DNA from: Sulfurimonas sp. SAG-AH-194-C20
Lineage (GTDB): Bacteria; Campylobacterota; Campylobacteria; Campylobacterales; Sulfurimonadaceae
Direction of reading: 5' to 3'
Assembly (NCBI RefSeq): GCF_029215975.1
Contig: NZ_JAEMVD010000001.1
Coordinates: 124,001-188,000, forward strand
Length of the DNA: 64,000 bases
The position numbers and the translations under genes were made by a program. Below are positions 33,779-45,132 of the stretch, in pieces (positions within the stretch are counted from its first letter, which is position 1; each line of letters starts with the position of its first letter). The notes beneath the pieces are model-generated. The model searched no databases. It had not been told where the DNA came from and was given only the letters and a program-made list of their open reading frames with translations.

Positions 33779-33881
33779 CTCTTCTTTAGACCTGTGCAAT
33801 GGTTGCTACGGATAATGGGTCAGGGTAGGAATACAGCAGCCCACCTTTAGCAATTATGTGCCGCAGGTATCTGGAGAAGAG
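33779..33881 (+). ncRNA. ffs: Signal recognition particle RNA (4.5S type)
   Basis: This RNA forms the SRP with Ffh. The conserved apical loop region reads GGGTCAGG-GTAGGAA-TACAGCAGCCC (33827-33843 at its centre), equivalent to the GGTCAGG-x-GGAA-x-AGCAGCC core of small bacterial SRP RNAs. The ends pair: CTCTTCT at about 33779-33785 with AGAAGAG at about 33875-33881. At about 103 nucleotides it has normal size for the short, Alu-less form. The exact ends are estimated from the stem. Confidence 0.9.
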
Positions 33882-44262: not shown

Positions 44263-44268
44263 TATAAT
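44263..44268 (+). promoter_or_regulatory. -10 element of rpmI leader
   Basis: A perfect TATAAT lies 134 bases before rpmI, giving a leader of roughly 125 bases. No clear -35. Confidence 0.6.
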
Positions 44269-44274
44269 CCCACT

Positions 44275-44401
44275 CTCAAAGTGTGTTTGGCTTTTATCTA
44301 TCTCGTAAGAGGTTAGCTTTAGTGCCTGAGCGGTTAGCGCTTTTTTATGGACTCTGTTCATGAAAAACATACTCATGATATTTTTACCTAAAGGATTATC
44401 G
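44275..44401 (+). promoter_or_regulatory. rpmI leader with attenuator-like hairpin
   Basis: GAGCG-GTTAG-CGCTT (44328-44342) forms a short hairpin that runs straight into six Ts (44341-44346), as in a weak intrinsic terminator. The blocks TGCCTGAG (44323-44330) and TGGACT-C-TGTTCAT (44348-44361) flank it and recur before rplT. Control of this operon by L20 is known in other bacteria; here it is inferred. Confidence 0.5.
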
Positions 44402-44593
44402 ATGCCAAAAATGAAATCGGTAAAAGGCGCTGTTAAGCGTTTTAAAGTTAAGAAAAATGGTCAAATTAAACGTGGTAAAGCGTTTAGAAGCCATATTTTA
44501 ACTAAACAAGATGCAGGAACTCGTCGTGATCAAAATCAACCAGCAGTGGTTGCTAAGTCAGACGCAGCAAACATCAAGGCTATGATAAACTAA
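44402..44593 (+). CDS. rpmI: Ribosomal protein L35
   Basis: The protein has 63 residues, starting M-P-K-M-K-S-V-K-G-A at the ATG at 44402, with AAAGGA seven bases upstream. The frame stays open further upstream, but family length sets the start. It is very basic, as expected for a small large-subunit protein. rplT follows after 179 bases. infC, which precedes rpmI in many bacteria, is absent. Confidence 0.96.
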   Translation: MPKMKSVKGAVKRFKVKKNGQIKRGKAFRSHILTKQDAGTRRDQNQPAVVAKSDAANIKAMIN

Positions 44594-44772
44594 TTTTAGT
44601 TTTCATTACATCTCCAATTTTTAAATAAATTGGGCAAGACCACCAAAGTAGTGGCACCTTGATTGTTTAAGTAAAGCCTTTAGGGGGTTGTAGGGACTTT
44701 GTGTCCCTGCCTGAGAAGTGGACTTGTTCATTTCTTAGTGAAATAACGACTAGGTAAAGAAAAAGGAAAGAA
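44594..44772 (+). promoter_or_regulatory. Structured rpmI-rplT intergenic leader
   Basis: Three hairpins can form: CCAATTT/AAATTGG (44614-44633), CCAC/GTGG near 44640-44654, and AGGGAC/GTCCCT (44692-44708). After these come TGCCTGAG (44708-44715) and TGGACTTGTTCAT (44719-44731), both shared with the rpmI leader. AAAGGAAAG precedes rplT. A binding site for L20 or another regulator is plausible but inferred. Confidence 0.5.
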
Positions 44773-45132
44773 ATGCCAAGAGTAAAAACAGGTGTAGTTC
44801 GTAGAAGAAGACACAAAAAGATATTAAAATTAGCGAAAGGTTTTTATAGTGGTCGTCGTAAGCACTTCCGTAAAGCCAAAGAGCAAATTGAACGTTCACT
44901 TTATTATGCATTCCGTGACCGTAAGCAGAAAAAACGTGAGTTCCGTAAACTATGGATCATCCGTATCAATGCAGCGGCTCGTTTAAATGGAATGAACTAT
45001 TCATCTTTCATGAATGGTGTACATAAAGCAGGTGTTGAGCTTGACCGTAAAATTCTTGCTGATATGGCAATGAACGATGCAGCAGCATTTACTGCAGTTG
45101 CAGACGCTTCTAAAGCAGCATTAGCAAAATAG
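44773..45132 (+). CDS. rplT: Ribosomal protein L20
   Basis: The protein has 119 residues and starts [16 protein letters not shown], with the [11 protein letters not shown] segment and normal length. It is an early 23S rRNA-binding assembly protein and the known autorepressor of its operon in several bacteria. Confidence 0.97.

Follow-up and report, generated by a model that had tools for sequence, protein, structure and literature searches.

The genes for the ribosomal proteins L35 (rpmI) and L20 (rplT) of Sulfurimonas sp. SAG-AH-194-C20 are each preceded by a leader that carries the same two short sequence blocks, which raises the question of whether these blocks form the site through which L20 would control its own synthesis. 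The original prediction took them as two copies of an L20-responsive motif before two genes. In the stretch of DNA analysed (64 kb, hereafter the window), the blocks were found in both leaders as described, in the following setting:

44263–44268, + strand: TATAAT, likely the -10 element of the rpmI–rplT promoter (by consensus only; position shared by same-genus relatives)
44323–44330 and 44708–44715, + strand: copies of TGCCTGAG in the rpmI leader and before rplT, respectively (by sequence)
44348–44361 and 44719–44731, + strand: the second block, TGGACTCTGTTCAT in the rpmI leader and TGGACTTGTTCAT before rplT (by sequence)
44402–44593, + strand: rpmI (L35), 63 aa (reading frame, relatives)
44773–45132, + strand: rplT (L20), 119 aa (reading frame, relatives)

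Chance recurrence of the longer block was ruled out: the pattern TGGACTN0-2TGTTCAT occurs twice in the 64-kb window versus 0.02 expected occurrences, none of 100 shuffles reached two, and the shorter pattern TGGACTN0-3TGTTCA is found nowhere in the genome assembly except in these two leaders. TGCCTGAG by itself is weak (7 occurrences in the window versus 1.17 expected), with five of the seven lying outside the two leaders. Order and spacing had been described as similar; the order is indeed the same and the second block lies about equally far from the start codon in each leader (40 and 41 nt), but the blocks are 17 nt apart in the rpmI leader versus 3 nt before rplT.

A comparison of same-genus leaders revealed that the blocks are missing from both leaders in most relatives compared, which rules out conserved twin blocks; such a lack of conservation had been named in advance as evidence against the prediction. 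Each pair of blocks belongs to a dispersed palindromic repeat, of type B in the case of rpmI and of type A in the case of rplT:

44298–44367, + strand: type B repeat, containing TGCCTGAG and TGGACTCTGTTCAT (other copies, relatives)
44328–44348, + strand: terminator-like stem with a downstream T run, within type B (consensus scan; weak)
44677–44738, + strand: type A repeat, containing TGCCTGAG and TGGACTTGTTCAT, with hairpin 1 at 44690–44710 and hairpin 2 at 44711–44738

In both leaders, TGGACT(C)TGTTCAT caps the final hairpin of the repeat. The origin of TGCCTGAG differs: in type B it lies within the conserved part, and in type A at the junction of the conserved GTCCCTGCC with the variable stem. 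Judged from these sequence comparisons, its presence in both leaders is a coincidence, and the shared blocks are not the L20 operator.

Type B consists of CTA-hairpin-TTAGCTTTAGTGCCnnAGCGG(C/T)TAGCG followed by a hairpin with a similar tip in several copies. The rpmI-leader stretch is matched in 36 of the 80 same-genus genomes searched, and the own genome has a second, partial copy between rplK and rplA (locus L034, G000:C12:2733-2775; genes read from sequence). At least three gaps between ribosomal protein genes of the Sulfurimonas sp. SAG-AH-194-C20 genome harbor such repeats. Array-like series of type B, on the same strand and ~80–140 nt apart, were seen at G319:C108:1863-2085, G332:C15:44687-44989 and G325:C1:213504-213617. 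The distance from TATAAT to the rpmI start is 33–72 nt in most same-genus leaders, which carry no type B, and 114–139 nt in the window and three relatives (L162, L163 and L164), with type B at the same place in all four. This pattern is best explained if the rpmI leader acquired type B in a common ancestor of this genome and these few relatives.

Type A begins with GTAGCTTTAGGGGGTTGTAGGGAC-loop-GTCCCTGCC and continues with a hairpin of up to 12 bp. Across 28 distinct copies, the arms of this second hairpin vary yet remain complementary, and its tip is commonly GGAC..GTTC or GGGC..GCTC. The rplT-leader stretch has two further partial copies in the own genome and is matched in 47 of the 80 same-genus genomes, where as many as 11 copies were scored in a single genome. 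The rpmI–rplT gap spans 179 nt in the window versus 78–129 nt in the relatives measured, and L162, which closely matches the window on either side of the insert, has no type A there; among the leaders compared, only the window carries it in this gap. The best explanation is that type A was inserted into the gap, so far only in this genome.

With its GTAG tag, short palindrome and dispersal between genes, type A fits the GTAG-tagged REP repeats (PMC3733652); it differs from them in being a two-hairpin unit with a fixed hairpin 1 and a freely changing second stem, and type B does not have the GTAG layout. Searches for a RAYT link of types A and B gave no support so far: no Y1_Tnp was found in the 66%-complete assembly of the Sulfurimonas sp. 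SAG-AH-194-C20 genome, and type A was absent from the 16 loci examined around Y1 transposase genes of relatives.

Once the insert is set aside, the rpmI–rplT gap displays a strongly conserved succession of P1, NAAG(U/A), P2, CACC, a variable loop, GGU, AAAG and the rplT Shine-Dalgarno sequence. In the window, the conserved structure comprises 44613–44659 and 44752–44755, with the following parts:

44613–44634, + strand: P1 hairpin, UCCAAUUU / AAAUUGGG (covariation, 60 leaders)
44635–44639, + strand: CAAGA, the NAAG(U/A) joint, counterpart of 23S AAAGU (conserved in leaders; own 23S)
44640–44654, + strand: P2 hairpin, CCAC / GUGG (strongest covariation; two-sided changes at all four pairs)
44655–44659, + strand: CACCU, of which ACCU is the 5′ strand of P3 (CACC/GGU co-occurrence in relatives)
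44660–44751, + strand: P3 loop, 92 nt, containing the type A insert (loop lengths; insert-free L162)
44752–44755, + strand: AGGU, 3′ strand of P3 (92% of P3 cells paired)
44763–44767, + strand: rplT Shine-Dalgarno AAGGA, eight bases past P3 (by sequence)

Covariance modelling across Campylobacterota, proposed along with the original prediction, revealed strong covariation in this separate structure. In an alignment of 60 leaders that excluded the window, RNAalifold alone recovered P1 and P2; P3 (ACCU with AGGU) was picked by eye from the very sequences counted, which biases its counts in favour of the structure. Pairing was present in 91.4% of cells versus 76.0% in shuffles, 125 versus 41 cells had changed on both sides, and the covariation score was 0.429 versus 0.191 ± 0.012, a value reached by none of 500 shuffles. 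Shifting the pairing partners brought pairing down to 20–47%. P2 is the best-supported helix, fully paired in 21 of 36 observed cases versus 2.5 when arms were shuffled among leaders. Since the two central C-G pairs of P3 are nearly invariant and variation occurs in the end pairs only, P3 rests mostly on these end pairs (in L215, one G-C replaces A-U, CGCC with GGC) and on the co-occurrence of its strands: CACC is present in the leaders of 77 of 90 relatives, and GGU near the start codon in 74 of these 77. The P3 loop mostly measures 5–26 nt in relatives versus 92 nt in the window. In one close relative (L002:1855-1982), this loop is 44 nt long and contains another small hairpin, GGGCTCCATCGGAGTT, which may represent a separate insertion or a relic.

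The core of the leader recurs in 23S rRNA. The organism's own 23S (locus L276) reads CAGCUAAGGUCCCAAAGU-CUUGUCU ... AGACAAG-CACCGAAGCU; next to NAAG(U/A)-P2-CACC ... GGU of the leader, the same letters flank the helix alike, and GGU-ACC pairing is possible in both. The joint is CAAGA in the window versus AAAGU in 23S, and GGU stands 5′ of the helix in 23S and 3′ of it in the mRNA leader. Three 23S-bearing loci each contain a single helix of at least 5 bp between AAG(U/A) and C(A/G)CC, a scan that is by itself only moderately informative because shuffles give 0.2–0.4 by chance. We take the matching 23S stretch to be the H40/H41 junction. The regulatory domain of L20 binds this junction (PMC6962249), and earlier L20 leaders have been identified by an AA dimer together with two adjacent G-C pairs (PMC7247131). 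The leader provides both, with the CC/GG of P3 and the AA of NAAG, in agreement with the own 23S. On this correspondence of motifs, the leader core is a copy of the H40/H41 junction in which the GGU strand is joined 3′ instead of 5′. The blocks, for which the same comparison had been suggested, show no likeness to the 23S site.

Covariance model R1 detected the window leader at 54.4 bits despite the insert, with no second match in the 64-kb window. It also detected Campylobacterota leaders that had not been used in model building, and 0 of 22 rplT loci of other phyla. Matches were obtained in 253 of 397 Campylobacterota genomes and 59 of 68 genera, with a single match per genome except for G253, which has two. 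In all 60 genomes for which the place of rplT was also given, the match lies directly before rplT on the same strand and ends at most 12 nt from its start. In the window, the conserved structure is single and sits before rplT only, contrary to the predicted two copies before two genes. Leaders with CGCC and no GGU (L064, L065, L066, L068, L070, L071, L072, L075, L085, L095 and L099) score less well with R1; in these, we infer, the Shine-Dalgarno sequence itself might supply the GG partner of the CC.

In both E. coli and B. subtilis, L20 control of these genes operates through mimicry of rRNA (PMC10931766; PMC6962249). In Campylobacterota, the comparative data make L20 autoregulation through this single site before rplT likely, which upholds the predicted feedback through a motif of this phylum, but with an operator other than the blocks. 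Free L20 beyond its rRNA sites would bind the leader junction and stabilise the weak P3 beside the Shine-Dalgarno sequence, and the closed P3 would block ribosome loading on rplT. P3 alone is weak, as expected of a ligand-held helix.

The insert may interfere with this device. A fold that keeps both P2 and P3 lies 3.7 kcal/mol above the optimal one for the window leader, versus 0.2 kcal/mol for the insert-free L162; as single-sequence energies, these values are only suggestive of weaker control. The cost in the window arises because CCUUGA, which includes the CC of P3, is able to base-pair with UUAGGG in the type A insert, and by offering this competing partner the repeat may weaken L20 control here. 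That feedback through a circularly permuted 23S H40/H41 junction has been altered in this genome by a mobile repeat in the P3 loop is a tentative proposal, possible rather than probable. A natural experiment is at hand in this leader, which exists both with a mobile repeat in its loop and free of one.

How do other readings fare against these data? That the paired blocks before rpmI and rplT act as twin L20 operators would suit their recurrence above chance and their ends 40–41 nt before both start codons, but most relatives lack them, dispersed repeats at many unrelated places account for them, and they are unlike the 23S L20 site; we find this hardly credible. The type B repeat could also have been co-opted as an rpmI transcription attenuator. 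The attenuator-like hairpin noted originally beside the blocks of one leader does exist (stem and T run at 44328–44342, within the terminator-like site at 44328–44348), and the repeat has been retained at one position in four genomes. Its stem is weak, however, with five pairs, one of which is lost in L163, and the T run doubles as an arm of the next hairpin, which leaves attenuation quite unlikely.

The conserved leader may be real but answer to another ligand, L35, or have another role, as an RNase processing site or in the translational coupling of rpmI and rplT. Binding of L20 to the leader is inferred, and rpmI is always adjacent: it lies upstream of rplT in 90 of 91 loci, the remaining one being cut short, and loci without rpmI, sought to separate L20 from L35, were absent among the 91. 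Because of this arrangement, linkage does not distinguish L35 from L20 as the ligand. Yet the core equals the 23S L20 site, and repression of these genes by L20 is well established in two other phyla (PMC10931766); we consider a different ligand or role rather unlikely. A point against the L20 leader itself is that part of the phylum has CGCC without GGU, or no R1 match; another is the window's CAAGA joint in place of the AAAGU of 23S. Taken together, the sequence data make it quite probable that repeats were inserted into both leaders and that the gap between rpmI and rplT harbors a Campylobacterota L20 ribosomal leader.

No L20 leader in Campylobacterota was found in the open-access main texts searched; those of PMC7247131, PMC11109978 and PMC2965389 name none. 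Rfam families gave chance matches only at the leader region. The window's only Rfam match at gathering score is the bacterial small SRP RNA at 33783–33880 (RF00169, 60.9 bits).

A conserved RNA structure with covariation in the mRNA of the L20 gene is what characterizes L20 ribosomal leaders, and by this comparison the Campylobacterota structure is a candidate further member of the group. The Firmicutes L20_leader (Rfam RF00558) likewise responds to L20 at the same genes, but it is located before infC and works by transcription termination. It has no match at gathering score in any Campylobacterota leader examined, and a 25-bit match in L061 was discarded, as it lies at the far end of rplT, outside the leader. 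The E. coli rpmI–rplT operator, a pseudoknot and an irregular hairpin (PMC10931766; PMC6962249), shares L20 control by rRNA mimicry and long-range pairing. It has two sites before rpmI and reaches rplT via coupling, whereas Campylobacterota have one site between rpmI and rplT, where the sole R1 match of the window lies. The L20 leader candidate of Deltaproteobacteria likewise retains, in the leader of the L20 gene, both elements of the rRNA site, the AA dimer and the two adjacent G-C pairs; it is described as another scaffold in another lineage (PMC7247131), and R1 had no match at the two Deltaproteobacteria rplT loci tested. Next to these systems, the Campylobacterota leader would be one more scaffold on which this rRNA site is rebuilt, and one whose resemblance to the original is unusually literal. 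It would also offer an L20 feedback mechanism, open to direct testing, for an entire phylum that includes Helicobacter, Sulfurospirillum and Arcobacter-type bacteria.
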